A stretch of DNA of 20,715 nucleotides from a virus: positions 1 through 20,715 of IMG/VR virus record IMGVR_UViG_3300049491_000300; one strand, written 5' to 3'. Under the pieces are notes generated by a model. The model was not told where the DNA came from. It ran no database searches and was given only the letters and a program-made list of their open reading frames with translations. Of this stretch, positions 1 to 20,715 are shown piece after piece. The position numbers and the translations under genes were made by a program. The stretch's first letter is position 1; the number at the start of each line of letters is the position of its first letter.

Positions 1-203
1 AAATCATCGTTGAAACCTATCCGTACAAGGATCAAATCTTGAAGGCGAACGGCGCTGGCGGTTCGGGCGGTGGCGGTGGTGGCGGTAATCGCGGTGGCAC
101 CAGTCGGACGATGCGCCGCGCTGATTTCGATGCGCTCGCACCGGTGGATAAGTCGGCGGCGGCAACCGCGATGGGCAAAGGCGAATTGTCCGTTGTCGAT
201 TGA
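1..203 (+). CDS. C-terminal part of a probable scaffold/head-assembly protein (5' truncated)
   Basis: The open frame enters the window with codons starting at base 3 and stops at TGA 201-203, leaving about 66 residues. A Gly-rich linker (residues about 18-32 of the fragment) is followed by a basic segment with RRADFDAL and a short tail ending KGELSVVD. A C-terminal helix of this kind directly upstream of the coat gene in the late operon is typical of phage scaffolding or head-maturation proteins. The function is inferred from position and style only, because the N-terminal domain lies outside the window. A strong GC hairpin follows the stop codon by a few bases. I am confident that it is coding and only moderately confident of the role. 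Confidence 0.7.
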   Translation, partial: IIVETYPYKDQILKANGAGGSGGGGGGGNRGGTSRTMRRADFDALAPVDKSAAATAMGKGELSVVD

Positions 204-340
204 TGCGTTGCGGCCCGGCGGATCATACCGCCGGGCCGCTCGCGTTGTAAGGCTCGCCTAGCCTTTAGGTGGTAATACGCTTGCATGGGATCGAACCCGG
301 TGCGCAGCGCTTCCCGCTCGATTTGTTCGTTCGTGATCAT
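32..340 (-). CDS. Small phage protein of unknown function; 3' end uncertain
   Basis: ATG at 338-340 opens a 102-residue frame. The first 35-40 residues (ITNEQIEREALR, then GFDPMQAYYHLKARRAL) have normal codon use and the look of the short helical proteins often found in alphaproteobacterial phages. The second half reads through the hairpin at 210-239 and then antisense to the Gly-rich coding region of the upstream + gene, giving a Pro-rich tail. That tail may be just a consequence of the opposite strand, so I trust the start more than the end. It lies 23 bases downstream of the preceding minus gene, as the last member of that small operon. No convincing Shine-Dalgarno is visible. The role is unknown. 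Confidence 0.45.
   Translation of the reverse strand: MITNEQIEREALRTGFDPMQAYYHLKARRALQRERPGGMIRRAATHQSTTDNSPLPIAVAAADLSTGASASKSARRIVRLVPPRLPPPPPPPEPPAPFAFKI
210..239. terminator. GC-rich perfect hairpin after the scaffold-type gene
   Basis: A perfect 12-bp inverted repeat (GCGGCCCGGCGG / CCGCCGGGCCGC) with a 6-nt loop ATCATA starts 7 bases after the stop at 203. There is no clear T-run on the + side, so it may be a weak or factor-assisted terminator or an mRNA-stabilising structure. It also lies inside the minus-strand ORF 32-340. Confidence 0.55.
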
Positions 341-363
341 GCGATGGTCATACCGCCGATCCG

Positions 364-510
364 TTAACGAACCGTTACCGCCGTGATCGTCGCATCATAG
401 CCGTATTTGTTGCACCATGTTTCGATCACGGCGAGGCGGAACCAAAGCGGGAAGCGACGGACGCCCATCGGCTCGCCAGTGACGGGCCGGGCAAGGGTGA
501 CGGTGATCAT
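364..510 (-). CDS. 48-residue phage protein of unknown function
   Basis: This is a short gene of 49 codons including the TAA. Its ATG (508-510) overlaps the TGA (507-509) of the preceding minus gene as ATGA, the standard sign of translational coupling. The product begins MITVTLARPVTGEPMGVRRF and continues with a Trp/Tyr-rich segment (LWFRLAVIETWCNKYGYDATITAVTVR). The second half would form an amphipathic helix followed by a strand. I do not recognise the family. The exact coupling and ordinary codon choice (GGC, CGC, ATC, GAT) support a real gene despite its size. It sits third in the minus-strand block between the scaffold and coat genes. Confidence 0.65.
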   Translation of the reverse strand: MITVTLARPVTGEPMGVRRFPLWFRLAVIETWCNKYGYDATITAVTVR

Positions 511-734
511 TGGCTTTCATCCTGATAGGGATCGGCATGGATCGTCACCGGGAAACAAGGTAGGCCACGATGATCGTTGCGGATCGCCTTGCGATATTCC
601 GCCGTCTTCCAATAGCGTTTGCACGATTCGACATGCTTGCGGAATTGGGCGATTTTGTCTGGCGTGTTCGCCGTGAAGGTGGAAAGATATTCCACGCCCG
701 TTGCGTCCAAAACGTAAAGGTGAAGGCTGTTCAT
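507..734 (-). CDS. 75-residue phage protein of unknown function
   Basis: The start chosen is ATG 732-734, because TTTGGAG lies 8-9 bases upstream and the ATG overlaps the TGA of the previous reading frame (ATGA). The frame stays open upstream to 920, but that longer reading would fuse it to the preceding gene through Arg-rich out-of-frame sequence. The protein starts MNSLHLYVLDATGVEYLSTF, has a central basic helix (DKIAQFRKHVESCKRYWKTAEYRKAI) and ends with PVTIHADPYQDESQ. No known domain was recognised. It holds one of only three GANTC sites in the window (625-629), within a Glu-Ser pair. It is coupled to the genes on both sides. Confidence 0.7.
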   Translation of the reverse strand: MNSLHLYVLDATGVEYLSTFTANTPDKIAQFRKHVESCKRYWKTAEYRKAIRNDHRGLPCFPVTIHADPYQDESQ

Positions 735-920
735 GCTGCATTCTCCAAAACTTGTGCGAACGAAAGGATGCGCCCGCAACCGTTGTTGTTGACGCGATAC
801 CCGCGTTCGCCAGTGGCAAACGCGGGTATCGCTTGCCGCATTCGGAATGACCGTAAGGCCGATGATGGTGATCCCCTTGCGGGCAAGAGCATTACGCGTC
901 TTGGCTGAAAAATCGTGCAT
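731..920 (-). CDS. Small phage protein, apparently frameshifted (+1) at an internal hairpin
   Basis: ATG 918-920 has a good Shine-Dalgarno (AAAGGA, 9 bases upstream) and reads MHDFSAKTRNALARKGITIIGL plus VIPNAASD. Beyond this, that frame becomes Arg-rich and unlike a protein. The frame one base later reads PAFATGERGYRVNNNGCGRIL then SFAQVLENAA and stops at TGA 731-733, exactly overlapping the next ATG. Joining the two parts by skipping one base near 826-830 gives a coherent protein of about 61 residues, of a style I recall from other alphaproteobacterial phages (memory only). The switch point is the base of a long hairpin (794-832). It could be a mutation, a sequencing error or a programmed +1 shift; the sequence does not decide. 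Confidence 0.5.
794..832. repeat. 39-nt near-perfect hairpin inside the small minus-strand gene
   Basis: GCGATACCCGCG pairs perfectly with CGCGGGTATCGC (12 bp). The pairing continues inward (TTTGCC with GGCGAA on the minus strand, one G-T wobble) to a 3-nt loop, giving 18 pairs in total. It lies within coding sequence, precisely where the best reading frame changes. Confidence 0.7.
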
Positions 921-971
921 GGGGATCGATCCTTTCGGATGGGGCGGAATTGCCCGATTGGTGTGATGATG

Positions 972-1000
972 TTCCTATTGATCGTTGCGATGATCGTCAA
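972..1000 (-). promoter_or_regulatory. Putative minus-strand promoter for the small-gene block
   Basis: On the minus strand TTGACG (995-1000) is separated by 17 bases from TAGGAA (972-977), about 50 bases upstream of the ATG at 920. The -35 is good and the -10 weak. It faces away from a similar + strand promoter at 1050-1078. The prediction comes from pattern and spacing only. Confidence 0.4.
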
Positions 1001-1022
1001 GCATGAAATTTGCGATGATCGT
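985..1022. repeat. Direct repeat, possible operator between divergent promoters
   Basis: TTGCGATGATCGT occurs twice, at 985-997 and 1010-1022, 25 bases start to start. The first copy overlaps the -35 and spacer of the minus promoter; the second lies between the two promoters. This arrangement fits binding sites for a regulator of one or both directions, but no regulator gene is in the window. Confidence 0.4.
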
Positions 1023-1049
1023 GAAAATTGCATAATTTAGCGAAGCCGC

Positions 1050-1078
1050 TTGACGTTTTCCGCTATCTTCGGTTATGG
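1050..1078 (+). promoter_or_regulatory. Putative promoter for the major coat gene
   Basis: TTGACG (1050-1055), a 17-base spacer, then TTATGG (1073-1078). A leader of roughly 90 bases follows before the coat ATG at 1173. The leader contains a small hairpin AAGGTC-GGAT-GACCTT (1123-1138). The -35 hexamer and spacing match the divergent minus promoter, which makes chance less likely, but the -10 is weak. Confidence 0.4.
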
Positions 1079-1172
1079 AAATCATCACCCTTGCCGGATG
1101 GTTGGATGACCGGGCGGCGCTTAAGGTCGGATGACCTTGACCAAACCCCAATTCCAACCGTGAGGCTATCCC

Positions 1173-2420
1173 ATGCGCTCGTTGATTTCCCCGAACATGC
1201 AAGCGATCCTCGTTGCGCGCCGCGCACCGGCCATCGTCCATTCCGCCGCCTATGCGAACACGCTTACGGCGATCATCCCCGATCTTTACACCGCGATGGA
1301 CGTTGTTTCGCGCGAATTGCAAGGGTTCATTCCCGCTGCGATGCGTGCGCCCGGCGTTGAACGCGCCGCCGTTGGGCAAACCGTTCCCTATCCCATCGCG
1401 CCGACGCAAAACGCGTATGACATCGTTCCTTCGATGACGGTTCCCGAACCGCCCGACAACACCATTACGACCGGCCAAATGGCGATCACCAAGGCGCGTG
1501 CGGTTCCCTTCGGTTTCACCGGCGAGGAACAGCGGGCGCTCAATTCGGCTGGCGCGTTCGGTCCCGGCTATCTTACCGCGCAAGGCATGCTGATCGCGCA
1601 AGCGATCCGCACATTGAGCAACGAAATCGAAGCCGATCTTTCCGTTGAAGCGGCGGCGAACGCTTCGCGCGCATACGGCACCGCCGGAACCACGCCGTTC
1701 GGTTCGGGCGATTTGACCGATCTTGCGCAGTTGAAGAAAATCCTTGACGACAACGGCGCACCGCGCGTTGGTCGCTCGGCAATTCTCAACACGTCCGCAA
1801 GCGCCAAGCTGATCGCTTTGAACAACCTTTCGCGGGTGAACGAAGCCGGGACGCAAATGACGCTTCGCCAAGGCGAATTGCTCGATATCTATGGCATGTC
1901 CGTCAAGGAAACCGGGCAACCCGTCACGCACGTTACCGGAACGGCGGCTTCGTCAACGACCAATGCCGCCGGTTACGCTGTTGGCGCAACGACCATTAAT
2001 CTTGCGGCGGCTGGCACCGGGACGTTCACCGCTGGCGACGTTGTTTCGTTCGCGGGCGATACCAACAAGTATGTCGTTGTCACCGGCGATACGGACGTTT
2101 CGAACGGTGGCACGCTTGTCATCGCCGCGCCGGGGCTTCGCGTTGCGATCCCGGCGAGCGCAACGGCGATCACCAAGGCGGCAACCTATTCGGCGAACGT
2201 CGCGTTTTCCATGGACGCGTTGCATATCGCGATGCGCCCGCCCGCGACGCCCGACGAAGGCGATCTTGCGTTGGATCGGATGATGATCACCGATCCGCGT
2301 TCGGGCGTCACGTTCGAAATCAGCATTTGGCCGGGATACCGCAAGGTTCGGGCCGAAGTCGCCCTTGCATGGGGCGTCAAGGCATCGAAGCGCGAACACA
2401 TTGCGCTGTTGCTCGGCTGA
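1173..2420 (+). CDS. Major capsid protein, P22 coat (gp5)-like
   Basis: This 415-residue protein assembles the phage head shell. The N-terminus (NMQAILVARRAPAIVHSAAYAN) and the TAGDVVSFAG plus YVVVTGD segment near residues 285-305 follow the pattern of the P22 gp5-like coat family, in which a beta-rich insertion (about residues 255-335 here) interrupts the HK97-type fold. The C-terminal part (DALHIAMRPPATP ... GVTFEISIWPGYRKVRAEVALAWGVKA) is also typical. The length is close to P22 coat (about 430). The ATG is preceded by GTGAGG at about 7 bases. Its promoter is predicted at 1050-1078 and a GC hairpin follows the stop. The long antisense ORF within it is a shadow. Confidence 0.88.
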   Translation: MRSLISPNMQAILVARRAPAIVHSAAYANTLTAIIPDLYTAMDVVSRELQGFIPAAMRAPGVERAAVGQTVPYPIAPTQNAYDIVPSMTVPEPPDNTITTGQMAITKARAVPFGFTGEEQRALNSAGAFGPGYLTAQGMLIAQAIRTLSNEIEADLSVEAAANASRAYGTAGTTPFGSGDLTDLAQLKKILDDNGAPRVGRSAILNTSASAKLIALNNLSRVNEAGTQMTLRQGELLDIYGMSVKETGQPVTHVTGTAASSTTNAAGYAVGATTINLAAAGTGTFTAGDVVSFAGDTNKYVVVTGDTDVSNGGTLVIAAPGLRVAIPASATAITKAATYSANVAFSMDALHIAMRPPATPDEGDLALDRMMITDPRSGVTFEISIWPGYRKVRAEVALAWGVKASKREHIALLLG

Positions 2421-2437
2421 TAGCGCACGCCAAGGAA

Positions 2438-2463
2438 CCGGGCCGGTTTAACGACCGGCCCGG
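2438..2463 (+). terminator. GC hairpin downstream of the coat gene
   Basis: CCGGGCCGGT (2438-2447) and ACCGGCCCGG (2454-2463) form a perfect 10-bp stem with loop TTAACG, 17 bases after the coat stop. There is no T-run. It may be a partial terminator, or a structure that protects the abundant coat mRNA 3' end. Confidence 0.5.
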
Positions 2464-2535
2464 ATACCTAGCGGCGTTCATGCGTTTCGATTGCGGTGCG
2501 GTCATTGTGATCGCCGGTTCACAAGGAAGATTGCG

Positions 2536-3021: not shown

Positions 3022-3054
3022 TCTATCCCTTCGGTTCGCACCGTGCTAGACATG

Positions 3055-3090
3055 ACCGGCGGCGGGGAAACTCGCCGCCGGTTTTCGTTT
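3055..3090 (+). terminator. Rho-independent terminator
   Basis: A perfect 10-bp stem ACCGGCGGCG / CGCCGCCGGT with an 8-nt loop GGGAAACT is followed by TTTCGTTT. This is the most canonical terminator in the window and closes the coat transcription unit 33 bases after the stop at 3021. Confidence 0.85.
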
Positions 3091-3103
3091 GGGAGTGATC
3101 CGC

Positions 3104-3604
3104 ATGCCCGATAACTACGGTTCCGCCGATGATTTCCGCGCCTATCACACGGCACGCGGGCGCGATGTTTCCGGCTATACCGATGATGATGCGATCACCG
3201 CCGCGCTGTTGCTGGCGTCCGAATGGTTGGACGCTCGATATCGAACATCGTTTGGCGGAACCAAAGTCGGGTTGCGGAGTCAGTTGCGCGAATGGCCGCG
3301 CGTCAATGCATTCGATATTTACAATTACAATATCGGTTCATCGGTGGTTCCAACCGAAATCAAAAATGCGACGTATGAAGCGGCGTTGCGCCAGCTTGTC
3401 GCGCCGGGATCGCTTTCGCTCGATTGGACGCCGAACCAATATCGGCGCGTGTCGGTTGATGGTGCGATCAGTGCCGAATTCATGATGTTCAACGATGCGA
3501 GCGACATTCAAACCCGCTTCAAGGTCATCGAAGAAATTCTTTCGCCGATCCTTACCGGTTGCGGCAATTCCTCGCCATTGTCCGGTTCGATATCGCGTGT
3601 ATGA
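3104..3604 (+). CDS. Head-tail adaptor, DnaT-like family
   Basis: This 166-residue protein matches the layout of the phage family annotated as 'putative DnaT-like ssDNA-binding protein', which sits at the head-tail adaptor position in many siphophages. It has a start with a Tyr/Ala-rich helix (SADDFRAYHTARG), a D-D-D-A-I-T-A-ALLLASEWLDARY helix, an REWPR motif, a PTEIKNATYEAALRQL helix and a short beta segment before the C-terminus (residues about 125-150). I chose ATG 3104 because GGAG lies 8-9 bases upstream and the earlier in-frame start at 3089 falls on the terminator T-run. Its role, joining the portal to the tail, is inferred from order. It contains one of the three GANTC sites (3277-3281). 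Confidence 0.72.
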   Translation: MPDNYGSADDFRAYHTARGRDVSGYTDDDAITAALLLASEWLDARYRTSFGGTKVGLRSQLREWPRVNAFDIYNYNIGSSVVPTEIKNATYEAALRQLVAPGSLSLDWTPNQYRRVSVDGAISAEFMMFNDASDIQTRFKVIEEILSPILTGCGNSSPLSGSISRV

Positions 3605-4587: not shown

Positions 4588-5610
4588 ATGACGCCGCGCC
4601 AGCAACTTGAAGCGTTGATTGACCTTTTCACCAAGGATATTCGTTCGGCGTTCTTTGCTGCAATCCAAGACGTTGTTGATAATGTGATCCTTCGTCAAGT
4701 TATCGATGCGATCCAATTGGGCGATCTAGCCGCCGCGTTCGAAGCGCTCGGCTTTTCACCCGCTGCCATGCGCCCGCTTACCGCGTCGATTGAACGCGCC
4801 TTTGAACAAGGTGGCGTGATGACCGGCAAGACGTTCCCGAAATACCTTCAAACCGCCGCCGGGCGGATCGTCTTTCGGTTCGATGTTCGCAACAGTCGCG
4901 CCGAAGCATGGTTGCGCGATAAATCGTCCGAATTGATCACCCGTATTCAGGAAGATGCGAGGATTACGGTTCGCAACACGCTTGAAGCTGGCATGATTGA
5001 TGGTCGCAATCCTCGCAACGTTGCGTTGGATATCGTTGGGCGGATCGATCCCAAGACCGGACAACGAAGCGGCGGCGTAATCGGTTTGACCACGCATCAA
5101 GAAAATTGGGTTAGATCGGCTCGCCAAAAGCTGATCACGCTTGATGAAGCTTATTTCAAGATGGAATTGCGGGATAAGCGGTTTGATCGCACGGTTGCCA
5201 ATGCGATCCGCGACGGGAATACATTGCCGGTCGATACGGTTGATAAGTTGATTATGCGATACAAGTCAAATGCACTCAAATATCGCGGTGATATGATCGC
5301 CCGAACCGAAGCGATCCATGCGTTGAACCGGTCGGAATACGAAGCGACGAAACAGGCGGTGGAAATGGGCGCGGTTGGAGCGGACGCGGTAAAGCGTGAA
5401 TGGGATAGCGCCGGTGATAGTCGCGTTCGGTGGTCGCATCGTCGGTTGAACGGTCAAAAGGTCGGACTTGATGAAGCGTTCGTTTCGCCCGTCACTGGCG
5501 CGAAGATGATGCATCCCGGCGATATTAGCTTAGGCGCACCGGCACGCGAAGTTGTCGCGTGCCGTTGTCGCGTTCGATCACGAATTGACTGGTTAGCAGA
5601 TATCGACTAG
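4588..5610 (+). CDS. Minor head protein, Mu gpF / SPP1 gp7-like head morphogenesis
   Basis: This 340-residue protein carries the C-terminal signature of the phage Mu F / SPP1 gp7 family: ARTEAIHALNRSEYEA (about residues 237-252), KREWDSAGDSRVRWSHRRLNG (about 269-289), FVSPVTGAKMMHPGD, then VVACRCRVR near the end, with the CRC motif. The N-terminal 200 residues are mainly helical. In related phages it is a minor virion component involved in head assembly or DNA exit. It usually lies next to the portal, so its place here, after the coat and neck genes, is a little unusual. AGGAA lies upstream of the ATG. Its stop overlaps the convergent minus gene by 18 bases. Confidence 0.82.
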   Translation: MTPRQQLEALIDLFTKDIRSAFFAAIQDVVDNVILRQVIDAIQLGDLAAAFEALGFSPAAMRPLTASIERAFEQGGVMTGKTFPKYLQTAAGRIVFRFDVRNSRAEAWLRDKSSELITRIQEDARITVRNTLEAGMIDGRNPRNVALDIVGRIDPKTGQRSGGVIGLTTHQENWVRSARQKLITLDEAYFKMELRDKRFDRTVANAIRDGNTLPVDTVDKLIMRYKSNALKYRGDMIARTEAIHALNRSEYEATKQAVEMGAVGADAVKREWDSAGDSRVRWSHRRLNGQKVGLDEAFVSPVTGAKMMHPGDISLGAPAREVVACRCRVRSRIDWLADID

Positions 5611-5853: not shown

Positions 5854-6097
5854 CAATCCGCTTCCTTGCGTTCGCCATGGCACGTTCGCACGTTTCCGCT
5901 GATAGCGGTTCACGCAACGTATCCTTGATCCCTTGCGCATACCATTCGCGAAGATCGCCGCCAATCCCGTCCATTGACTTTTCGGTTTCAGCTTGAACGA
6001 ACGTTGTCATCCAAGGGCGACAACGACCGGCGACGTAAGCCGCTTCCTGATAAGGGGTGATGACCGCACTAGCGGCGAGGATCGCAGCAAGGATCAT
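5828..6097 (-). CDS. Small protein with hydrophobic N-terminus, unknown function
   Basis: This 89-residue gene starts at ATG 6095-6097, sharing bases with the TAA (6097-6099) of the upstream gene, so it is translationally coupled. The first 14 residues (MILAAILAASAVIT) are hydrophobic without N-terminal positive charge, followed by YQEAAYVAGRCRPW; the rest is helical and charged. Two cysteines (C26 and C70) could pair if the protein is exported. A short signal or membrane anchor seems likely, but the lack of basic residues makes Sec export uncertain. It is third in the block headed by the MoxR-type ATPase. Confidence 0.68.
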   Translation of the reverse strand: MILAAILAASAVITPYQEAAYVAGRCRPWMTTFVQAETEKSMDGIGGDLREWYAQGIKDTLREPLSAETCERAMANARKRIDEQRNTAR

Positions 6098-7158
6098 TAG
6101 TCGGTTCCTTCAATCTTCACCGGCAAATTCGGCGGCTGTATGATCGCAAGGATTTCCATAATGTCAAGCGTATTTTTCAGGAACGTTGGAATATAGAATT
6201 CATTGCGCATCGGCGGGCAACCATCTTCGAATGCATCGCAAAGATAGTTTTGCGCATCGCTGTTATGGCTTTGGCGGATGACGCCGCGTGCTGCATGAAC
6301 CAATCGGCGAGAAAACGAAGGATGACCGAACGCAAAACTAACATCGGCGAGATTAAGGCGCTCGCCAGCTTCCTTGATCGTCACCGCTGTATGAACGCCG
6401 CGCCCATCGAACCGGCGGAGGATGCTAACAGCGACAAGATTGCATGAATATCCTTCGCTTTCCAATCGATCAATGATTGCAGCAACGGCGATGCTTCGGA
6501 CTAGCAGCACGTCCGCTTTGATCTTGATCCATGAAGCCGTTTCGACAAATACCGTGATCGATTTGCGGCCCTTCAAGACGCGTCGCGCGATCATGTGGTT
6601 CGGTTGCCCGGCGAGCATGCGTCCAACACTTACGGAACCGCCCGCCAGCGTCTTACGGCGGCGCTTGCGTGTCGCTGGCGGGATCAATAGCCGATCCATC
6701 ATGCCAAGGCCGTCAAGCCATCCGTGGCGAGCGATATCGAGCGCATCGGCGAGGCTTTCGGTTCCGGTAAAACCGGGCGGTGCTGCCCATCCTTTATCAT
6801 GCAATCCGAAGCCCGGTTTTGGTCGCTCCAAGCTGGCGACGTGATCAACGAACGCACCAAGGCTATCGAAGCCGAAGAAAACAACGGGATCGGGATCAGC
6901 AAAATATCCATAATATGTAAAATCGTTGCCAATCTTGATCGGCTGTTCAACTGGCGTTGGTTCCCATGATGCGAATGGATTGATGCGCGGGGCGTCTTCG
7001 GTGATGACCAATCCGACAACTTGGCGCAATTCGTCCAAGCGTGTCAACGATAGGTGTTCGAATTCCCATCGGCGTTCAAGGTTGTTCCACCAACCGCCAA
7101 TGTTCGCGAGATAGTCGCGGTGATCCCATGTGCGACCGGAAACGATAAACCTAGTCAT
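6097..7158 (-). CDS. Partner of the MoxR-type ATPase (DUF7192-like, possible degenerate vWA fold)
   Basis: ATG 7156-7158 gives 353 residues and overlaps the ATPase stop (TAG 7151-7153) by 8 bases; an ATG 6 bases earlier is also possible. No strong Shine-Dalgarno is seen, consistent with coupling. Residues 1-50 form a module with GRTWDHRDYLANIGGWWNN and WEFEHL, a small domain I have seen at the start of other phage proteins. Residues 85-160 carry DPDPVVFFGFDSLGAFVDH and PPGFTGTESLADALDIARHGW, as in proteins I recall as DUF7192. Residues 198-290 alternate strand-helix-strand (ITVFVET; RSIAVAAIIDRLESEGYSC; NLVAVSILRR), a layout like a vWA domain but without the DxSxS metal site. By analogy with MoxR-vWA pairs it is probably the ATPase's adaptor. 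The vWA idea is inference. Confidence 0.72.
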   Translation of the reverse strand: MTRFIVSGRTWDHRDYLANIGGWWNNLERRWEFEHLSLTRLDELRQVVGLVITEDAPRINPFASWEPTPVEQPIKIGNDFTYYGYFADPDPVVFFGFDSLGAFVDHVASLERPKPGFGLHDKGWAAPPGFTGTESLADALDIARHGWLDGLGMMDRLLIPPATRKRRRKTLAGGSVSVGRMLAGQPNHMIARRVLKGRKSITVFVETASWIKIKADVLLVRSIAVAAIIDRLESEGYSCNLVAVSILRRFDGRGVHTAVTIKEAGERLNLADVSFAFGHPSFSRRLVHAARGVIRQSHNSDAQNYLCDAFEDGCPPMRNEFYIPTFLKNTLDIMEILAIIQPPNLPVKIEGTD

Positions 7159-8200
7159 CGTTATCATCAATCTTGGCACGATCCTTGGATGACATGCCTT
7201 TGAAAAGGTAAATCGCTTCGCATTCATCCCATTCGATACCAATGCCAAGCGCCGCCGATCCCATGGCAATTGCCCGGCTCGATACAACGTGCCGAATGCG
7301 CTTTTCATCAACTGCCTTGCGAACGCTCCAAATGCGTTCAAGCCATTCATCGCGCCCGGCGGCAAACAAGCGTTCAAGGGTAAGATCATAATCAACATCG
7401 ATCACCGCGAAGCGGTCAAGGCTCGCCGCGTCCAATTCGTTGCGTCCAACGTATATGCGATCAGCGCCAGTGCCAAAGGTGTTCGCCGTGGCGATCATCC
7501 GAAAGTCAGTGTGGCGATAAATCGGTTCCGGCTTGTCGGGAAAGTTGCAAAAGCCGTTGGCAAGCGCAGCGTTGGCGGCAAGCAAGGCGTTCGCATCCCA
7601 TGCGTCGATTTCGTCGGCGATCCATACGCCGCCGCGTTCGAAGGCATCCCGAAAAGGCGTGCGATGGTATGTGCCATGCCCATCAACGAAGCCGATCAAT
7701 TCATGTGTTTCATTGATGGTGCTAGTGATGTTAAACGGCAATTGGAGCGCCTTCGCGGTATGCTCGCCGATGGTGGTCTTTCCGCAACCCGCCGGACCAA
7801 CCAACATGACCGCATGGCCTAGCGCGACAATCTTGATCGTCAATTCGGTGCGATAGTGAACAATACCTTCAAGCGTGATCGATCCGCGCGGACCAACGAT
7901 TTCAAGCTTGCGTGTGATCCCATCGTTGAACAACTTGGTTGCTTCGTCGCGGGCAATACGGCGAACCGTTTCTTTGTTCGCAATCGATCCGCCGCCCATG
8001 TTCGCCAGCGTCGCAAGGATGGCGGCGGCGGTCGCTCGTTGTATATCGGTTGGCCTTGGCGCGGTTTCGTGATAAGCGTTGATCAATTGAACGTTCGTCA
8101 TGATCGCAACCGACGCCGGGGATCGCCCATGCGCAACGAGATAATCGATAACATCGGGACGATTATCAACCGTTAGGATTAAGTTGGGATCATAAAGCAT
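7151..8200 (-). CDS. MoxR/CbbQ-family AAA+ ATPase
   Basis: This 349-residue protein has the full AAA+ set: Walker A GPAGCGKTT at 135-143, Walker B VWIADEID at 192-199, sensor 1 ATANT at 237-241, an arginine-finger region LDRF (R263) and a sensor-2-like SSRA (R309). The GVWIADEIDAWD and NTFGTGADR context is that of MoxR/CbbQ/NorQ ATPases, which remodel partner proteins, often through a vWA-domain adaptor. Residues 1-120 precede the ATPase core and are helical and unfamiliar. The gene is first in a four-gene minus-strand block and overlaps its likely partner downstream. No strong ribosome site precedes ATG 8200; a promoter-like TTGACA lies about 55 bases upstream. The substrate is unknown: capsid or tail maturation and host takeover are both possible. 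Confidence 0.88.
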   Translation of the reverse strand: MLYDPNLILTVDNRPDVIDYLVAHGRSPASVAIMTNVQLINAYHETAPRPTDIQRATAAAILATLANMGGGSIANKETVRRIARDEATKLFNDGITRKLEIVGPRGSITLEGIVHYRTELTIKIVALGHAVMLVGPAGCGKTTIGEHTAKALQLPFNITSTINETHELIGFVDGHGTYHRTPFRDAFERGGVWIADEIDAWDANALLAANAALANGFCNFPDKPEPIYRHTDFRMIATANTFGTGADRIYVGRNELDAASLDRFAVIDVDYDLTLERLFAAGRDEWLERIWSVRKAVDEKRIRHVVSSRAIAMGSAALGIGIEWDECEAIYLFKGMSSKDRAKIDDNDD

Positions 8201-10581: not shown

Positions 10582-13527
10582 ATGGCGGACATTGCGCAAC
10601 TTGGTTTCAGCGTTTACACCGGTGAATTGAAGGAAGCCAAGACCGCGCTTGATGGTTTGGTTCCTTCGGCGGTCAAAGCTGAAACCGCCGCTAAAAAGCT
10701 TGGTGATGCTTTCGATGGTGCTGCAAAGAACGCGGATCGAATTGCCGCCGGTGCGGACAAAGCCGGTTCAAGTGTTGCAAATGCGGCGACCGGTATTGAT
10801 CGCAATACGAAGGCGTTGAATGTCAACAGCGCCGCCGCCGGTAAATCGAGTGAAGCGCAACGCCGGGCAGCGGCGAGCGCGGACATTCTTGAAACCCGCG
10901 TGAACAATCTTTTCAAAGCAACTTTTCCGCTCGCCGGTGCGATGGCAAGAGCGAACGGGCAATTGATCGATGCCGCCGATCTATATAAGCGCGGGGCGAT
11001 CAGCGCCGAACAATATCTTGGCGTCCAAACGGTTCTAAATCGTCAAATCGATGCGTTGAACGTCAAACAACAAAAATTCAATCAAGCGTTGGTTGGTGGT
11101 AACGTTGCGTTGAAAGGTTCTTCGGCGGCGACGGCGGGCCTATTAACCAACATTCTGCAATTGATCCCCGGTTCAAGCGGGTTGATCAATATCTTTCAAA
11201 TTTTGGAAAGCCTTGCTTCGGTCGCCGGAACATCGGGGGCGGCTGGTCAAGCGGGTGCGCAAGGTATCGGCGGTTTGGTTGATGCTTATGGTCAAGTGAA
11301 GGAATTCGGCGTTGAAGCCGCTGGCGCTGTTACCGCCCTATCAGCCGCGACGGTTGCAAGTGGCGGCGCTGCGCGTGCGGCGGCGGGGACATTTCGTCAA
11401 ATGGCGGTTGCCGTATGGGCAGCAATCGCGCCACTCTTGCCAATCATTCTTGTTGTTGCCGCCGCTGTTGGTCTTGTTGCCGGTGCGTTTGCGCTCGCCA
11501 CACGATCCATCAACAAAGGCAATGCCGATATCGTCGCCGGGCTTGGATTGACCGAAAAGCAATTGGAGCGGGTGAAGAAATCCGGCGTTGATACCGGTGT
11601 GACAATCGGCGACACGTTTACGGCATTTTTCCAAGTTGTTGGTTCGCGTTTGATGGAAGCGTTTGACGGGCCGTTGAAATGGCTTGCGCAAGCGTGGAAT
11701 GATACGCTTGATTTTATCACCAAATATGGTGCGAAAGCCATCGAATTCATCATTGGTGGTTGGGTTGGCAGCGTTTATGCTATCCGCAATGCTTGGAAGC
11801 TGTTGCCCGCCGCCATCGGCGATATCGCCATCGGTGCGGCAAACTTGGTCATCGGCGCGATTGAAAGCATGATCAATGGTGCGATCAGTCGCATCAATGC
11901 ATTGTTGGCGTTTGCGAACGGCGTTTCGTCCAAGCTTGGTCTTCCCGGTCTTGGTCAAATCGGTAAAGTCGATATGGGGCGGATCGCCAATCCATATTCG
12001 GGCGGGGCCGGTGCGCTCGGCGCGGGGATCGCCAGCGGCGTCCAACAGGGGCTTGCGGAAAGCAAGGGGATGGTTGGACGCTTCTTCGGCGACGTGCGCA
12101 AGCAAGCCATAAAGAACGCGCGTAATCGGATCATGGAAGCGGCTGGCGATCCTGAAAAACCGGGTGGTGCGAAAAAGGGCGATGGTTCATCGGGAAGCAA
12201 AAGCGATCCGTTTGGCGATATCGTGCGCGGCGCGGAACGGGATATTGCAACAATCAATGCGAAGATCGCGGGCGTCAATCTTTCGGCGGACGCGGCATTG
12301 CGTTTAACCAACCAGCAAAAGCTTTTGAACGAAGCCGCCGAAAAAGGCATCAAACTTACCGACGCGCAACGCACGCAATTGATGGGGCTTGCCGATACGC
12401 TTACCGATTTGCAAATCAAATTGAAGAACCTTGAAGGGTTCAAGCAAATCACCGAAGGCGCGGATAAACAGCTTGTTGCGTTGAAGGCGGTTCATGCGCA
12501 AATTGGGCTTTATGGCGAGGCGCTTTCGCGTGCCAAATACGAACAACAGCTTTTGAATGAAGCGGTTGAAAAGGGGATCACCCTTGACGCTGCCCAACGC
12601 AAGACCATCGCTGATAAGGCGGCGGAATTAGCGGCGCAAGACCAAACGAACACAACCGATCAATTCATGGAAGATCAGCGCAAAAAACATGAAGAACGCA
12701 TGATCATCCTTGGTCAAGAGCGCAACGAAATCGGCATGTCCACCGATCAGTTGACGCGGTATCGGATCGAAAACGAATTGTTGGCGCAAGCCCGACAAGC
12801 GAACATCGATCTAACGCCAGCGGAAATCGCCGCCATTCAAGGGATCGCCAAAGAACAAGCGACGGCTGAAAATGCCATTCGCAAGACGCGTGAAGCGCTC
12901 GATTTCGCCAAGGAAACGACCAAAGGGTTCTTCAACGATCTTCGCAGCAACCTAGAACAAGGCAAGTCGCTTTGGGCATCGTTCGCCGACGCGGTATCGA
13001 AAGCGATTGATCGTATCCTTGATAAGCTGATCAACGATTTCTTGGATAACGCTTTGAACGCTTTGTTTAGCGGCGGAAATTCAGGCGGCGGGATCGGTGG
13101 CATCCTTGGATCGATTTTCGGCGGCGGTGGCGGGTTCGGTGGCGGCGGGTTCGGTGGCGGCTTTGGCGGCGGGTTCGCCGCTGGTGGCATGTTCGGCGGC
13201 GGCGGATCGCTGATCAGTGCGCCGACGCTGTTCGGCATGGCGAACGGCAAGACGGGCATTGCGGGTGAAGCGGGGCCGGAAGCCATTGTTCCGCTTCAAC
13301 GGGGAGCGGACGGGGCGCTAGGCGTCCAAATGCTCGGCAAGAGCAACCCGGCGAACGCGCCGCGGATCAATGTCAACATCACCAATATCCATAATTTGAG
13401 CGGTGCGGTTTCTTCGAAGGATATCGTTGAATTGAACCGTCAAAGCGCCGAAAATACGAAGAAAGAGTTGCGACGGCAAATTCCCGGTATCATCACGCAA
13501 TTCCAACGCGATGGAACAATTTCATGA
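10582..13527 (+). CDS. Tail tape measure protein
   Basis: The 981-residue protein fixes tail length; at about 0.15 nm per residue the tail would be near 150 nm. The N-terminal 180 residues are helical and Ala/Lys-rich, consistent with coiled coils. Hydrophobic segments lie around residues 275-305 (WAAIAPLLPIILVVAAAVGL) and about 400-440. Three repeats of about 75 residues, each with an 'LLNEA.EKGI.LT.AQR' core, begin near 576, 653 and 727. A Gly-rich stretch (about 832-872) and the tape-measure ending AGEAGPEAIVPLQRGADG follow. GAAGG precedes the ATG closely after the chaperone stop. Its TGA overlaps the next ATG. Confidence 0.92.
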   Translation: MADIAQLGFSVYTGELKEAKTALDGLVPSAVKAETAAKKLGDAFDGAAKNADRIAAGADKAGSSVANAATGIDRNTKALNVNSAAAGKSSEAQRRAAASADILETRVNNLFKATFPLAGAMARANGQLIDAADLYKRGAISAEQYLGVQTVLNRQIDALNVKQQKFNQALVGGNVALKGSSAATAGLLTNILQLIPGSSGLINIFQILESLASVAGTSGAAGQAGAQGIGGLVDAYGQVKEFGVEAAGAVTALSAATVASGGAARAAAGTFRQMAVAVWAAIAPLLPIILVVAAAVGLVAGAFALATRSINKGNADIVAGLGLTEKQLERVKKSGVDTGVTIGDTFTAFFQVVGSRLMEAFDGPLKWLAQAWNDTLDFITKYGAKAIEFIIGGWVGSVYAIRNAWKLLPAAIGDIAIGAANLVIGAIESMINGAISRINALLAFANGVSSKLGLPGLGQIGKVDMGRIANPYSGGAGALGAGIASGVQQGLAESKGMVGRFFGDVRKQAIKNARNRIMEAAGDPEKPGGAKKGDGSSGSKSDPFGDIVRGAERDIATINAKIAGVNLSADAALRLTNQQKLLNEAAEKGIKLTDAQRTQLMGLADTLTDLQIKLKNLEGFKQITEGADKQLVALKAVHAQIGLYGEALSRAKYEQQLLNEAVEKGITLDAAQRKTIADKAAELAAQDQTNTTDQFMEDQRKKHEERMIILGQERNEIGMSTDQLTRYRIENELLAQARQANIDLTPAEIAAIQGIAKEQATAENAIRKTREALDFAKETTKGFFNDLRSNLEQGKSLWASFADAVSKAIDRILDKLINDFLDNALNALFSGGNSGGGIGGILGSIFGGGGGFGGGGFGGGFGGGFAAGGMFGGGGSLISAPTLFGMANGKTGIAGEAGPEAIVPLQRGADGALGVQMLGKSNPANAPRINVNITNIHNLSGAVSSKDIVELNRQSAENTKKELRRQIPGIITQFQRDGTIS

Positions 13528-14866: not shown

Positions 14867-15279
14867 CCGATCATATTGACGATACCTTGAAGCGCTGGCG
14901 GCAAACCGAATTCGATTATGGCGAAGCCGATTGCCTGTTGTCTATTGGGGATTACATCAAGGAAACTTGCGGGATCAACAACGTCGATAACTGGCGTGGA
15001 ACCTATTTCAGTCAGAATGAAGCGTTGACGCTCGTTGCCGACAATGGTGGCGCACATGGGATCATCGATACGACCGGGCTTGAACAAATCGATCCTAGTG
15101 ACGCCAAGCGCGGTGACGTGGTTGTGATCGATACGTTGACCGGCAAGGGGCTTGAAGCGACCATTGGGGCGCTTTGCACCGGGCCGGGCGTCGCTGCCCG
15201 CCTTGAACGCGGTGTGATCGAAATAGATCGCCGGTTCGTCCGCATTACACACGCTTGGAAAGTCGCCGCACATGGGTAA
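14863..15279 (+). CDS. DUF6950 / NlpC-P60-like tail-tip protein
   Basis: In this 138-residue protein the FDYGEADCLLSIGDYIKET segment (Cys24) corresponds to the 'W...DC...' catalytic-Cys helix of NlpC/P60-type proteins, and RGDVVVIDT at about residues 84-92 to the following strand. The order is that of the DUF6950 family found before gpJ-like genes. A His in the usual position after the RGDVV strand is not obvious (the segment reads EATIGALCTG), so peptidoglycan hydrolysis is not assured. In this position the protein is thought to help the tail cross the cell wall or build the tip. It overlaps the tail-tip gene by 8 bases. Confidence 0.7.
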   Translation: MTDHIDDTLKRWRQTEFDYGEADCLLSIGDYIKETCGINNVDNWRGTYFSQNEALTLVADNGGAHGIIDTTGLEQIDPSDAKRGDVVVIDTLTGKGLEATIGALCTGPGVAARLERGVIEIDRRFVRITHAWKVAAHG

Positions 15280-17467
15280 GATCGGCAAAATCCTGATCGG
15301 TATCGGCTTGATCGTCGCAGGGATCGTCCTAGCGCCGTTCACCGGTGGTCTATCGCTGCAACTCGTTGGTATTGGCATTGGTCTTGTTGCGCAAGGCGTG
15401 ATCGGTTTGTTCACGCCGAAGCCCGGCACGAAAAGCGACGTTGGGCGCGTCAACGTCCGTGTGGCCGAACCGATCCGTTGGTTGAACGCCGGTCGCTGCA
15501 AACAAGGCGGTGCGGTGTTGTTCGCTGAATTCGATACCGCTGGAAATCTTTGGTATCTGTTAGTGCATTCGGATAGCATCCTTGTTGAACCGCTCCAAAT
15601 TTGTCTTGATGATATTCCGGTAACTTTGGATGGTTCCGGGTTCGTCACCAACAAAGAATTTCGACTTACCGCAAAGAAAGAGGCGGTGACAACCGATGGT
15701 GCGGGGATCGCATACGTTCAAGTTTGGACAACGACTTATAGTGAAAGCAATCCGACGCCGCCCGCGATCAGCGCGCTTGCTGGCGCATTTCCGTCCAAAT
15801 GGACAAGCAATCATAAGTTGGTTGGAACAACGTATTCGGTCATCAAAATGAATGCGTTGAAAAACGAAGATCGATACAAACTTTATAAGTTTCGCGGCCC
15901 GCTTGGTTTGGGCGAACCATCAATGGCGATTGTCGGCAAATGGTCACATGCATTCGATCCGCGCGATGAAGATCAAATCAACGGGACACCGACAACCTAT
16001 TTATTCACCCGGAATGCGGTGTTGCAATGGGCATGGTTCCGCACGCATCGTTACGGACGCAACAAACCGCGTTCATCGATCAATTGGGATAAGGTGGCGG
16101 AACAAGCCGAAATATGCGATCAAGTGGTTGAAGGCTTGGTTGGTGATCATGTTCGCTATCAGTGCGATATTTCGATTGCCGACGATCAGGCGCGTATAAA
16201 CGCGGAACAAGATATTTTGATGACGATGGATGCGCAACTTGTGTTTGACGATGATGGCAAGGTTTGGCCGCGCGTCGGATACTATGAAGCGCCAACGCTT
16301 GTCTTGACGCGCAATCGCGACATTATCGCGATGGAAAGTCTTGAAGCGCAAGATGGTGAAAGCGAAACACAAGGCGTAATCGTCCGCTATACCGATCCCG
16401 ATGCCGACTATGCGGTTCAACCGTCCGCGCCGTGGTATAATCCGCTATATTACAATGAAGGCGAAGCCGCGACGTTTTTGACATTCGAAGCGCTCGCCAT
16501 CCAAGATCATAATCAAGCAATGAGGATCGCCAAGGCTATCGGCATGCGATCCCAACCGCTTCATCGCATTGCGCCAACGATGGGATTACGCGGATTGAAA
16601 GCACGGCAAGAGCGCATCGCCAACTTGAATTATGACAACACCTTTGCCGGTGAATACGAAATCACGTCGCCCGTTGAAGTTGATCCCGTTGGGATTATTT
16701 GTGGAACAACGATGGTTCCGGTTGATCCTGATCGTTGGGATTTGCTGCCCGGCGAGGAAAAGCCGAAATCCGTCACCGGCGACATTGACGAAAGCGATCC
16801 GCCCGATGTTCCAACCGGTGTAACGCTGGCGCTCGCCAATGGACGCCTTGAAGCGACATTTACGCCGCCAGCGCGCGAAGATATTGGCTATGAATTCCAA
16901 TACATTCCAACCGCCGATCTTGCCAACGACACATGGGCGACGATGACAACCCGGATGGATGACGGGTTTGCCTATAGCGGGACGGTGGTTGCCAATATCG
17001 ATTACACCATTCGATATCGAGCAATTGCAGCATCGGGCCGCGTGTCCGATTGGTCATCGGAATATGCGGCAACCGTAACACCAACGGGCAGCGCGCTTCA
17101 AATGGCAGTTTTCAACAGTTGGATTGTTGAACAATCGTTTATGAGCATAGCAGCGGACGGCACGCTAACCATTCTTGATCACACGCGCCGCTATTCGGAT
17201 GGTTGGCCGGATCAAACGGTTCAAGATGCAATCATTGCAACCGGGTTGGTGGCAAATGACGTGCGATCCGTTGCTTATGATGATCCTAATCGGACTGGCG
17301 GAACCGTCACATACAATCTATACACGAATGACAACGACGCGCACGCATCGGCGGCAAATCCGGGGCGGCATTATATGGGTTATGTCATCGTTCCTTCAAC
17401 CGGGTCATTCGATGGCGGCGGCGGTGGTGTTCCCGGTGGTTACTATCAATATGAGTATTACCAATAA
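15272..17467 (+). CDS. Tail-tip / central fibre protein, gpJ-like with Fn3 domain
   Basis: This 731-residue protein starts with two hydrophobic, Gly-rich segments (about residues 7-22 and 27-47), as in the lambda gpI/J-like tip group, followed by VNVRVAEPIRWLNAGRCKQGG, a beta-rich body, and the region AWFRTHRYGRNKPRSSINWDKVA / AEICDQVVEGLVGDHVRYQCD typical of gpJ-like hub proteins. An Fn3-type domain spans about residues 508-605 (PDVPTGVTLALANGRLEATF to YAATVTPTG). The C-terminal part ends in Gly-rich and Tyr-rich residues. It forms the tip to which receptor-binding fibres attach. The next gene, probably the fibre, begins 15 bases downstream with GGAG before its ATG. Confidence 0.82.
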   Translation: MGKIGKILIGIGLIVAGIVLAPFTGGLSLQLVGIGIGLVAQGVIGLFTPKPGTKSDVGRVNVRVAEPIRWLNAGRCKQGGAVLFAEFDTAGNLWYLLVHSDSILVEPLQICLDDIPVTLDGSGFVTNKEFRLTAKKEAVTTDGAGIAYVQVWTTTYSESNPTPPAISALAGAFPSKWTSNHKLVGTTYSVIKMNALKNEDRYKLYKFRGPLGLGEPSMAIVGKWSHAFDPRDEDQINGTPTTYLFTRNAVLQWAWFRTHRYGRNKPRSSINWDKVAEQAEICDQVVEGLVGDHVRYQCDISIADDQARINAEQDILMTMDAQLVFDDDGKVWPRVGYYEAPTLVLTRNRDIIAMESLEAQDGESETQGVIVRYTDPDADYAVQPSAPWYNPLYYNEGEAATFLTFEALAIQDHNQAMRIAKAIGMRSQPLHRIAPTMGLRGLKARQERIANLNYDNTFAGEYEITSPVEVDPVGIICGTTMVPVDPDRWDLLPGEEKPKSVTGDIDESDPPDVPTGVTLALANGRLEATFTPPAREDIGYEFQYIPTADLANDTWATMTTRMDDGFAYSGTVVANIDYTIRYRAIAASGRVSDWSSEYAATVTPTGSALQMAVFNSWIVEQSFMSIAADGTLTILDHTRRYSDGWPDQTVQDAIIATGLVANDVRSVAYDDPNRTGGTVTYNLYTNDNDAHASAANPGRHYMGYVIVPSTGSFDGGGGGVPGGYYQYEYYQ

Positions 17468-17482
17468 GCGGAGTTTCATCTA

Positions 17483-20230
17483 ATGTCGGCAATTGATACC
17501 CTTCGCCAAGCTTTGTTCGGTGATCCGCCGGTTCCGAATTACAAGCCGTCGCGTGAAGGCGTGTTGCGAGCATTCGAAGAATTGACCGATCAGGCGTTGC
17601 TCGCTACTTTCGGAATTGCCACCTATTCGACAAAAGCGGCAATGGACGCCGTAACGCCCGGTGTTGGCGCTCCAAAGATTGCTTTGGTCAATGACGATCC
17701 GACGCCAGCGAACAACACGATCTATACATATCGCGATGCTGCATGGGATGAATGGACAGAATTTTACACAGCGATTGCCGCAATCGTCCAACCGCTCGTT
17801 GATGAAGCAACCGATGCGCGCGATGATGCTGTTATTGCGGCGGCAATCGCAGTTGCGGCGGCGGCGAGCGCGGACTATAAAGTTCCGCGAAATGCCGATT
17901 TTGAGAATGCAATTGCCGCCGCTGTTGGCGGGATCGAAGCCGTTTCGATCCTGTTGGACGCGGACGAAGCGACTTACGTTTTCAAAGTTTCGTTGGAAGC
18001 GTATGACAGCGCGGAAACGATCACAAGCGTAACGCCGCAAATCGGGCCGGTGATGGTTGCGAACGTGCGAGGTGCAGCTTATTGGCCGAACCTTCAAGCG
18101 ATTAAGAATGCCGATGGTCTTGGTCTTCATGATGGCATAGGTTTTTCAGGAACCGAATTCATTCCCGATTGTGGCGAAACTTGCATTGACATTGTTTTTT
18201 CGATGCAACCGGTTGCCGATACTTACGCGTCGATTGCCGCGATGAATGCGGCGATTGGCACTGGCGATGATGTTGATCTAGACGCGTTGGTTTACACCGC
18301 CAATCCCGGCGAGTTGATGACAACCGCCGCCGCCGGGGCTTATGGTCAACCGCTCGCCGATACATATCTTTCGCTTAACCATTATGGAACCGAGTTAAAT
18401 CAAGGTTATTGGCGGCGACAAGCCGGGACGTATCAGAATTTCGCGCGATTGAGCGATTACTTATTTGCCGGTGGTTCAACTATATCGCCGGGTGATCGCC
18501 GTCTTGAAATGTCGATTGATAATCTTGGTCGCATTGGCGGTTTTGTTTATTATGGTTCGGGCGGCGCACAAACGGGGCTTAATGCGCCTTATCGCGATGT
18601 GATCGCCGAAAGTGCGGGTGAATTGCAACATGCCCAATTGCATTGTCGGGATGGCATCGCAACGCTTGTTTGGAATGGTGTTGAAGTTAGCGGCGGTGCA
18701 ACGACCATTGCGACTACGCTGAATACTCTAACAATGTTCGGGCCAATTTATTTGAAATCGCTGATCGTCACCAACGGTTGCGACTATGCGCAAAATCGCG
18801 CGTTGCATGATTTGATCGCTGATCGTTACGGGCTTCCTCACTTGGATTGGACCGATACCGTTGATCTTGTCATCAACCAAGACCAATCCCGCACGTCCGC
18901 TTCGCCGGGTGGAACAACTGGCGATGCCAATCGTCCCGATGCTCTTAGCAATTGGAACGGCGAGACAACGGCGCGTGATGGTGGCGACGGGATCGGCGCA
19001 ATCGATTTCAAGCAAAGCAATCCGACGCATTCACCCACGCCGGGGCTTTATTCGTTCGCCAATCTTACCAATTCGCATAATATCGGGCCGTTCGGTTTGA
19101 TGCATTATGTTTATGGTCAAGGCTTGGGCAAAACGCAAAGCGGAACCGGAACCGAAACGATTGAATGCGGTCTTTGGGCGCAATATCGGAAACACGGCGG
19201 TAAGAACCATTTGTTGATCATCGGAATAACCATTGGTGGTCAAACGCACGCCTATCTTGAACAACGATCCGGCAAATATCTTCATTCCCTACCCGTCGAA
19301 AATTACGCCAATCTTCAACCGCGTGATTGGATCAATCGAGCGGTCAAGAATGCTCAAAAATGGGCAGCGGCGCGCGGGCAGCGCTTGCGGTTGATTTGCG
19401 TCGCCGATCAGCAAGCCGAAACCGATGTTGGCACGCCCGGCATATCCGCGACGCGTGAAGCGGACATGCGAGCATGGTATAGCAACGAATTGTCGCACTT
19501 GGTTGATGTGAACGATCCGCCGCCGGTCTTCATGACCAAAACCGCATCATATAGTTTTGACGGCTTCGGCAACGGTTCGAACACGGCGGGCGTTTACTGG
19601 CGCGATGATGAACAACGCCGGATCGGCACGCATCGGGACGGTATCTTTCGGCTTCGAACGCTTACGTCCATTTACGCACACCAAGGGCGGTTCATCCATT
19701 GGACGGCTTTTGCACAACGCAAGCTTGGTGAAGCCATGGGCGATATCATCGGACGCGCCATGTTCAGCGGCGATGACGAAGCGTTGCAACCGATCAGCGC
19801 GGTTCGTTCCGGCAACAACATCATCATGACCTTGAACAAGCCTGTTAGCATCGTCACAACCATGTATCCGACCGTTCTAGCGACGATCACAACCGGCGGG
19901 TTCAACACTTACGGATTGGTTTATACACCCGTTGGCGGCGTCAAGACGATCAACGGCAATGTAACGCTTGGCGGCGCGGGTGCGCTCGCAAATCGCGTCC
20001 TAACGATCCCCATTAGCGGCGGCGGGCCGGATGCTGGCGATTTCATTGACGTTACCGGCGCTGGCGCTCGTTGGACAAATTTCAAATCAACCGAAACGCG
20101 CACCGGCGAATATGTTGATCAAGATTGGCCGGTTTCGCTGCCTTTCGCGTCCGCCGCGCCGACGATTGATGAAGGTGCGCTAAACGACATAACCGAATGG
20201 CTTGCGCCTTCACACTTTGTTTTGACATAG
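17483..20230 (+). CDS. Tail fibre with lectin-like and SGNH-esterase-like domains
   Basis: The 915-residue protein probably binds and modifies host surface polysaccharide. Residues 1-140 would attach to the tail (Ala-rich helix about 110-132). Residues about 305-450 form a beta-sandwich with ISPGDRRLEMSIDNLG, RDGIATLVWNGVEV and the ending NRALHDLIADRYGLP, typical of concanavalin-like domains in phage fibres. Residues about 460-755 resemble an SGNH/sialate-O-acetylesterase domain: Ser469 in INQDQSRTS (usual GQS), QAETD at 644-648 (usual QGE-S/T-D), and His739 in RFIHWTAFAQRKLGEAMG. The motifs are degenerate, so activity is uncertain. A beta-rich C-terminal domain (about 765-915) follows. Confidence 0.75.
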   Translation: MSAIDTLRQALFGDPPVPNYKPSREGVLRAFEELTDQALLATFGIATYSTKAAMDAVTPGVGAPKIALVNDDPTPANNTIYTYRDAAWDEWTEFYTAIAAIVQPLVDEATDARDDAVIAAAIAVAAAASADYKVPRNADFENAIAAAVGGIEAVSILLDADEATYVFKVSLEAYDSAETITSVTPQIGPVMVANVRGAAYWPNLQAIKNADGLGLHDGIGFSGTEFIPDCGETCIDIVFSMQPVADTYASIAAMNAAIGTGDDVDLDALVYTANPGELMTTAAAGAYGQPLADTYLSLNHYGTELNQGYWRRQAGTYQNFARLSDYLFAGGSTISPGDRRLEMSIDNLGRIGGFVYYGSGGAQTGLNAPYRDVIAESAGELQHAQLHCRDGIATLVWNGVEVSGGATTIATTLNTLTMFGPIYLKSLIVTNGCDYAQNRALHDLIADRYGLPHLDWTDTVDLVINQDQSRTSASPGGTTGDANRPDALSNWNGETTARDGGDGIGAIDFKQSNPTHSPTPGLYSFANLTNSHNIGPFGLMHYVYGQGLGKTQSGTGTETIECGLWAQYRKHGGKNHLLIIGITIGGQTHAYLEQRSGKYLHSLPVENYANLQPRDWINRAVKNAQKWAAARGQRLRLICVADQQAETDVGTPGISATREADMRAWYSNELSHLVDVNDPPPVFMTKTASYSFDGFGNGSNTAGVYWRDDEQRRIGTHRDGIFRLRTLTSIYAHQGRFIHWTAFAQRKLGEAMGDIIGRAMFSGDDEALQPISAVRSGNNIIMTLNKPVSIVTTMYPTVLATITTGGFNTYGLVYTPVGGVKTINGNVTLGGAGALANRVLTIPISGGGPDAGDFIDVTGAGARWTNFKSTETRTGEYVDQDWPVSLPFASAAPTIDEGALNDITEWLAPSHFVLT

Positions 20231-20240
20231 GGTTGATCAG

Positions 20241-20522
20241 ATGAAGACTTATATCATCACCGAAGCCGATGGATCGCTAAGGCAAGTGCGCTCGCCGATT
20301 CATCCTTGCGATGAACCCTTGCCCGGTCATGAACCGCTTTACGCGGGTGATCGCCGCAATGTGATTGACGTTGAAGCCGATCCCGACAATCCGGCATGGT
20401 TGCGGTATCGCGGGGCGATCAGCGATGAAACGTATGATCGATTGAAGGCGAGCGGCAAAGTTACCGTGAAGAACGGGATCGTTGCGATTGCAGATCAGCC
20501 GAAAAAGGCAAAGCGTAAATGA
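20241..20522 (+). CDS. Small protein of unknown function downstream of the fibre
   Basis: This 93-residue gene begins 11 bases after the fibre stop, with AGGG about 10 bases upstream of the ATG. It reads MKTYIITEADGSLRQVRSPI, has a Pro-rich centre (CDEPLPGHEPLYAGDRRN), a helix ISDETYDRLKASGK, and a basic Lys-rich tail (PKKAKRK). Small proteins of this kind often follow fibre genes and may be fibre-assembly helpers, but nothing here shows that. It contains one of the three GANTC sites in the window (20297-20301). It is ATGA-coupled to the next gene. Confidence 0.68.
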   Translation: MKTYIITEADGSLRQVRSPIHPCDEPLPGHEPLYAGDRRNVIDVEADPDNPAWLRYRGAISDETYDRLKASGKVTVKNGIVAIADQPKKAKRK

Positions 20523-20715
20523 CAATCGATCCAATCGTTTTCGATGATCCCAAAACCCGCAAGTTGTCCGACTTGCCGGGGGAAACCATTGAAACGACCG
20601 ATCCGATTGTTTACTATTTGAGCGGCGTAAAACGTCTTTCAACGACCGGTCTTGATTTGGACGATGAAGGCATTGATCAAATCGTTGTTGAAACGATTGA
20701 CGATGTTTCGAAGGT
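20519..20715 (+). CDS. N-terminal part of an unknown protein (3' truncated)
   Basis: ATG 20519-20521 overlaps the TGA of the preceding gene (ATGA), and the frame is open to the window end (65 complete codons). It reads MTIDPIVFDDPKTRKLSDLP, then ETIETTDPIVYYLSGVKRL, followed by an acidic segment DLDDEGIDQIVVETIDDVSK. No family was recognised. Coupling and position suggest it belongs with the fibre-associated genes. Confidence 0.62.
   Translation, partial: MTIDPIVFDDPKTRKLSDLPGETIETTDPIVYYLSGVKRLSTTGLDLDDEGIDQIVVETIDDVSK

Follow-up and report, generated by a model that had tools for sequence, protein, structure and literature searches.

GANTC elimination in phages related to Rhizobium phages P106B and X2_24, and its association with CcrM-bearing hosts and viral amino acid usage

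The phage fragment and its placement

The IMG/VR record IMGVR_UViG_3300049491_000300, analysed here over its entire length and referred to as the window, comprises 20,715 bp and represents a fragment of a phage genome. It encodes head and tail proteins on one strand and a pair of DUF7192 and CobS-like AAA proteins on the other (Table 1). The gene content is best read as a section of the structural genes of a siphophage, probably of virulent type, that belongs to the P106B/X2_24 group and whose full genome would measure about 55 kb as estimated from relatives. The Rhizobium phages P106B (vB_RglS_P106B) and X2_24 (RHph_X2_24) are the closest named relatives of the capsid protein (59–60% identity) as well as of the head and AAA proteins, and gene order is similar. 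The wider group around these two phages is characterized by shared capsid, head morphogenesis and AAA homologues arranged in a similar order, and the window carries all of them. P106B and X2_24 belong to the genus Rigallicvirus, which the window further resembles in its GANTC count (0 and 3 in the two isolates). However, a megablast search of the window against 50,697 phage records returned no match at the DNA level, whereas membership of the genus entails high nucleotide identity to P106B; the window was thus placed in the wider group and not assigned to Rigallicvirus. While the Rigallicvirus isolates have named hosts, that of the window is predicted only, and is most likely an alphaproteobacterium given that the nearest isolates grow on Rhizobium and Sinorhizobium. 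The parts of the P106B and X2_24 genomes examined have no annotated integrase, the window itself being a fragment. The DUF7192 and AAA reading frames as called (6097–8200, minus strand) overlap by about 250 bp, so that one of the two starts is probably wrong. This module occurs in eight of ten GANTC-depleted and in none of five non-depleted genomes.

Table 1. Genes and sequence features of the window.
Feature	Position	Strand	Remarks
GANTC elimination region	1–20715		whole record
Residual GANTC site 1 (GATTC)	625–629		in minus-strand ORF 507–920, Glu-Ser(TCG) pair
P22-type major capsid protein	1173–2420	+	phrog_283, PF11651; basis of relatives search and tree
Residual GANTC site 2 (GAGTC)	3277–3281		in CDS 3113–3604
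Mu F-like head morphogenesis protein	4588–5610	+	64–65% identity to P106B and X2_24
DUF7192 protein	6097–7398	-	sequence annotation
CobS-like AAA ATPase	7151–8200	-	56% identity to P106B and X2_24
Tail tape measure protein	10582–13527	+	annotation
Tail protein, listed as tail fibre	15272–17467	+	phrog_5616
Residual GANTC site 3 (GATTC)	20297–20301		in CDS 20241–20522

Specific loss of GANTC from the window

The first-pass annotation had counted only three GANTC sites in the window where about 80 were expected. This count is exact, and the expectation amounts to 80 sites by base composition and to 59 under a maximal-order Markov model (z = -10). No other of the 136 one-gap word classes ranks as low, in the window or in depleted relatives. 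When synonymous codons were permuted among the 21 called CDS (18.8 kb, 200 shuffles) with proteins and codon usage kept, 37.1 ± 5.0 sites were expected against two observed, and the lowest shuffle still contained 24. The ratio of observed to expected sites was thus 0.05 under the codon and Markov models and 0.04 by base composition, compared with 0–0.09 in relatives, i.e., below the 0.1 taken as the threshold for elimination. Both classes of central base have been lost (GAATC/GATTC 2 vs. 54 and GACTC/GAGTC 1 vs. 6, Markov model), which identifies the avoided word as GANTC and not GAWTC, and because all three reading frames are cleared, what is targeted is the word in the DNA. The control motifs named by the first-pass annotation were not comparably depleted (GTNAC 49/60, Markov model; GANNTC 61/86, codon model), and the loss is therefore specific to GANTC rather than common to all gapped words.

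Codon choice reflects the same loss, as had been claimed before. In the called CDS, all 17 Asp-Ser and Glu-Ser pairs use AGC or AGT, which serve for 101 of the 317 serines elsewhere (P = 9e-9); the remaining 216 of those 317 serines have TCN codons. An 18th pair, Glu-Ser with TCG in the minus-strand ORF at 507–920, forms the GAATC/GATTC site at 625; the earlier tally of 17 in 18 thus agrees with the 17 in 17 of the CDS set.

The statement that short palindromes are not generally lacking held only in part. GATC is indeed enriched 1.6-fold in the CDS of the window (226 vs. 143, codon model), but GTAC has been eliminated there as completely as GANTC (0 vs. 36), and CTNNAG (1 vs. 25), TTAA (13 vs. 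58), AGNNCT (7 vs. 32) and GGCC (33 vs. 105) are depleted under the same model. The absence of GTAC indicates that further pressures act besides that on GANTC. General palindrome avoidance was nevertheless rejected in view of the near-normal GTNAC and GANNTC, even though GTAC and some other words are depleted. Palindromes other than GANTC differ from relative to relative (e.g., GTAC 0/28 in G006 but 62/74 in P106B), whereas GANTC is the constant.

Several of these losses are observations in their own right. GTAC was lost independently of GANTC in the window (1 vs. 24–36 expected), in the G006 clade (0/28) and in Caulobacter phage Cd1 (L178, 0/33); L006–L012 are among the loci listed for its elimination, and at locus L019 it is absent (0/27) while GANTC is normal. 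Four proviral loci assigned to Verrucomicrobia (L139, L143, L145 and L156) hold no GTAC where 14–35 are expected, which suggests a lineage-wide GTAC methylase or restriction in those contigs. The first 20 kb of Pelagibacter phage HTVC019P (L183), devoid of GANTC, also contain no GATC (0/46) or GGCC (0/15), with GTAC and TTAA normal. GGCC is missing from the T4-like Sinorhizobium phages phiM12 (L185, 0/55) and phiN3 (L186, 0/60), and GGNCC from locus L058 (0/27), where GANTC is normal. AGCT is strongly reduced in G002 (L118–L120, 39/145) and G007 (L124–L126, 95/214), the latter also with reduced GATC (73/176).

Relatives, hosts and unrelated phages

Across 80 IMG/VR loci with a homologous capsid, GANTC status follows a two-peaked distribution. 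P106B, isolated on Rhizobium gallicum, has no GANTC in 56,024 bp where about 146 are expected, the IMG/VR record G013 is identical to it over the 50 kb compared, and X2_24 (Sinorhizobium) has 3/147 in 50 kb. Other depleted larger records contain 2/175, 2/178, 3/109, 3/120, 1/131, 1/124 and 12/139 sites (observed/Markov expected), so that the eight near-complete depleted relatives range from 0 to 12. Non-depleted larger relatives retain 159/190, 134/150, 172/192, 135/157 and 67/82, and one is intermediate (76/151). As most core genes are common to depleted and non-depleted relatives, depletion is not tied to one particular set of genes. The capsid tree (113 rows) requires about ten changes of depletion state, at least six of them forced by well-supported branches, and depletion is far more clustered than with shuffled labels.

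This clustering would also fit an origin without selection, be it through codon bias, composition passed down by descent or hypermutability of methylated sites, but the codon permutation rules out a neutral or codon-bias origin, and the state switches repeatedly among relatives with shared core genes. In addition, a 45 kb sample of the chromosome of the provirus-carrying Rhizobiales host discussed below keeps 75 of 120 expected sites, although, provided that CcrM behaves there like that of other Alphaproteobacteria, it would be methylated throughout; we regard the probability of this origin as practically negligible. That the loss is almost total and confined to some lineages could in principle be accounted for by a phage nuclease directed against GANTC, or its methylated form, in host DNA, which would oblige the phage genome to be free of sites. 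Yet no gene is common to all depleted and absent from non-depleted genomes, and the fully depleted G006 and G009 lack even the DUF7192/AAA module, which correlates best. For want of a gene with matching distribution this candidate was dropped as very improbable.

The comparison with phages of hosts lacking CcrM, as proposed by the first-pass annotation, agrees with an effect of the host. No depletion is seen in proviruses of the capsid family from gammaproteobacterial, betaproteobacterial, Verrucomicrobial and other hosts, whereas the one in a Rhizobiales metagenome-assembled genome is depleted (9/49). GcrA is a methylation-dependent host regulator. Among 20 provirus-carrying bacterial genomes, it occurs together with a CcrM-type RAMA domain only in the Rhizobiales genome, and only the provirus of that genome is depleted; an Anaerolineales genome has the RAMA domain without GcrA. 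GcrA homologues are also encoded by the phages X2_24 (L168, 47441–47950) and DMCA (L169, 41741–42382), but GcrA within phage genomes proved too rare to serve as a host marker. Alphaproteobacterial genomes contain on average half or less of the GANTC expected from composition (PMC3973325); together with the Rhizobiales sample, this places the phage level far below that of hosts. Mutational decay is an unlikely cause, since host chromosomes, which are GANTC-methylated in the Alphaproteobacteria studied, keep many sites.

GANTC has also been lost from unrelated alphaproteobacterial phages, namely Caulobacter phage Cd1 (0/31), Sinorhizobium phage phiM5 (0/40) and Pelagibacter phage HTVC019P (0/39; 20 kb each), and this is convergence. 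RHEph01 has 11/50, and the motif is kept to varying degree in phiCbK, HTVC010P, DSS3phi2, P14, phiM12, phiN3, 7-7-1, 16-3, N28_2, phiLM21, SIO1, Pkon1, DMCA and R6L; KT381880, a Citrobacter phage, was used only as a control. Clade-specific GANTC depletion was published for pelagiphages in 2022 (Seong et al. 2022, PMC9516812), and their HTVC019P/HTVC010P contrast is reproduced here. The motif and a depletion that partitions the phage phylogeny are the same in both cases, as probably are alphaproteobacterial hosts with CcrM and without known restriction-modification. The present genomes differ in that they represent another phage group with rhizobial isolates and several near-complete genomes; GANTC depletion is thereby extended to another phage group, including cultured rhizobial phages. 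The amino acid footprint described below and the contrast between hosts with and without GcrA/CcrM are, to our knowledge, additions.

Non-temperate phages, and virulent dsDNA phages most strongly, are known to eliminate Type II restriction-modification sites (Rusinov et al. 2018, PMC6286503). Like those cases, the window has an observed/expected ratio below 0.1 for a Type II-like palindrome, but its motif belongs to an orphan regulatory methylase without known endonuclease in the hosts. Complete elimination being a known signature of Type II restriction, ordinary restriction avoidance could underlie the loss: the phages would have met strain-specific HinfI-type systems with their own methylase, and CcrM would be incidental. 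Consistent with encounters with several such systems, the window also lacks GTAC and single relatives avoid other palindromes. However, those palindromes vary among relatives, whereas the elimination of GANTC extends over many lineages and recurs in unrelated phages from different orders of Alphaproteobacteria; strain-specific systems would predict more variation. In the literature, moreover, ccrM homologues adjoin an endonuclease only in Epsilon- and Gammaproteobacteria; in Alphaproteobacteria, CcrM is reported to be an orphan without endonuclease (PMC3973325), and no restriction-modification system was found in Pelagibacter (PMC9516812), two points that also weigh against our main reading. 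Overall, we consider ordinary restriction avoidance rather unlikely.

Phages that carry a GANTC methyltransferase bear on the direction of the effect. The specificity of the phiLM21 enzyme is published (PMC5537653), and several alphaproteobacterial phages carry their own GANTC methylase (PMC5537653, PMC7139368). All five surveyed phages with the phiLM21-type enzyme or a homologue retain GANTC at 0.3–0.66 of expectation, and the known type was not found in depleted relatives. That carriers keep GANTC is suggestive but not significant alone, given the small number of phages and the several non-depleted ones that lack such an enzyme: none was detected in phiCbK, DSS3phi2, HTVC010P, phiM12 or P14, which counts against our main reading. 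A phage-coded GANTC methylase as the cause of depletion was discarded, given the absence of the phiLM21 type from depleted relatives and the occurrence of PF01555 methylases in depleted and non-depleted relatives alike.

Methylation itself could be costly if CcrM methylation or hemimethylation, or titration of CcrM and GcrA by hundreds of sites, disturbed phage replication or expression. GANTC coincides exactly with the target of the conserved orphan methylase of the host, and the GcrA homologues of X2_24 and DMCA imply that such phages may interact with that circuit. Phages that encode their own GANTC methylase are hard to reconcile with such a cost, though, and elimination is uniform in coding frames and not confined to promoters; we therefore think a cost of methylation improbable. 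Taken together, the orphan status of CcrM, the lack of known restriction-modification in Pelagibacter and the GANTC methylases supplied by phages speak for a penalty on unmethylated GANTC rather than for a cost arising from methylation.

Protein footprint and proposed selection on GANTC

In depleted genomes, the dipeptides Asp-Ser and Glu-Ser occur at 0.56 of expectation, compared with 0.98 for the reversed order; in non-depleted relatives the two orders are at 0.88 and 0.87. When only protein clusters represented in both sets are counted, the two orders reach 0.63 and 1.00 in depleted versus 0.95 and 0.92 in non-depleted genomes, with a P value (9e-5) that treats counts as independent although related genomes are not. 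An unbiased ranking of 347 dipeptides places DS first and ES second by degree of reduction in depleted proteomes, and they are the only ones able to spell GANTC across two codons in frame (Asp or Glu codon followed by TCN). As the change from TCN to AGY needs more than one base substitution, loss of the residue offers the easier exit from GANTC. How DS and ES were lost could not be traced in aligned homologous positions, the sequences being too diverged. It thus appears that the purge of GANTC changed viral amino acid usage; no earlier report of such a footprint was found in a literature search of incomplete coverage.

The first-pass annotation had attributed the loss to counter-selection linked to GANTC methylation or restriction by the host. 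This reading is supported by the codon shuffles, the control motifs and the whole genomes of relatives, and it held in the comparison of hosts with and without CcrM/GcrA and in unrelated alphaproteobacterial phages. On balance, we favour, with some reserve, strong selection at the DNA level in hosts that carry CcrM, most likely caused by a penalty on GANTC that is unmethylated while phage DNA replicates. Such selection would remove nearly every new GANTC, acting on the DNA word in all frames and over the whole genome. CcrM would protect the host chromosome, whereas unmethylated sites in fast-replicating phage DNA would be cut or recognised as foreign; we infer this penalty, with CcrM as the mark of self, and the penalising activity is postulated. 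Phages could respond by erasing the sites, as in the window, or by carrying their own GANTC methyltransferase of the phiLM21 type. Where Asp or Glu is followed by TCN, GANTC would have no single-step synonymous exit to AGY, and DS and ES dipeptides would be thinned. More speculatively, and with considerable doubt, CcrM could be the key to a widespread self/non-self discrimination in Alphaproteobacteria, in which the methylase doubles as antidote to a dispersed activity against unmethylated GANTC and phages answer by motif erasure, at the price of about 40% of their DS and ES dipeptides, or with a GANTC methylase.

CcrM has so far been treated as a purely regulatory orphan methylase. The zero GANTC in 56 kb, the repeated switching of state and the apparent amino acid cost argue for strong scrutiny of GANTC at the DNA level. 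What penalises GANTC is a concrete and testable question, for which isolates and named laboratory hosts exist, and GANTC depletion can serve, from sequence alone, to assign metagenomic phages to hosts with CcrM.
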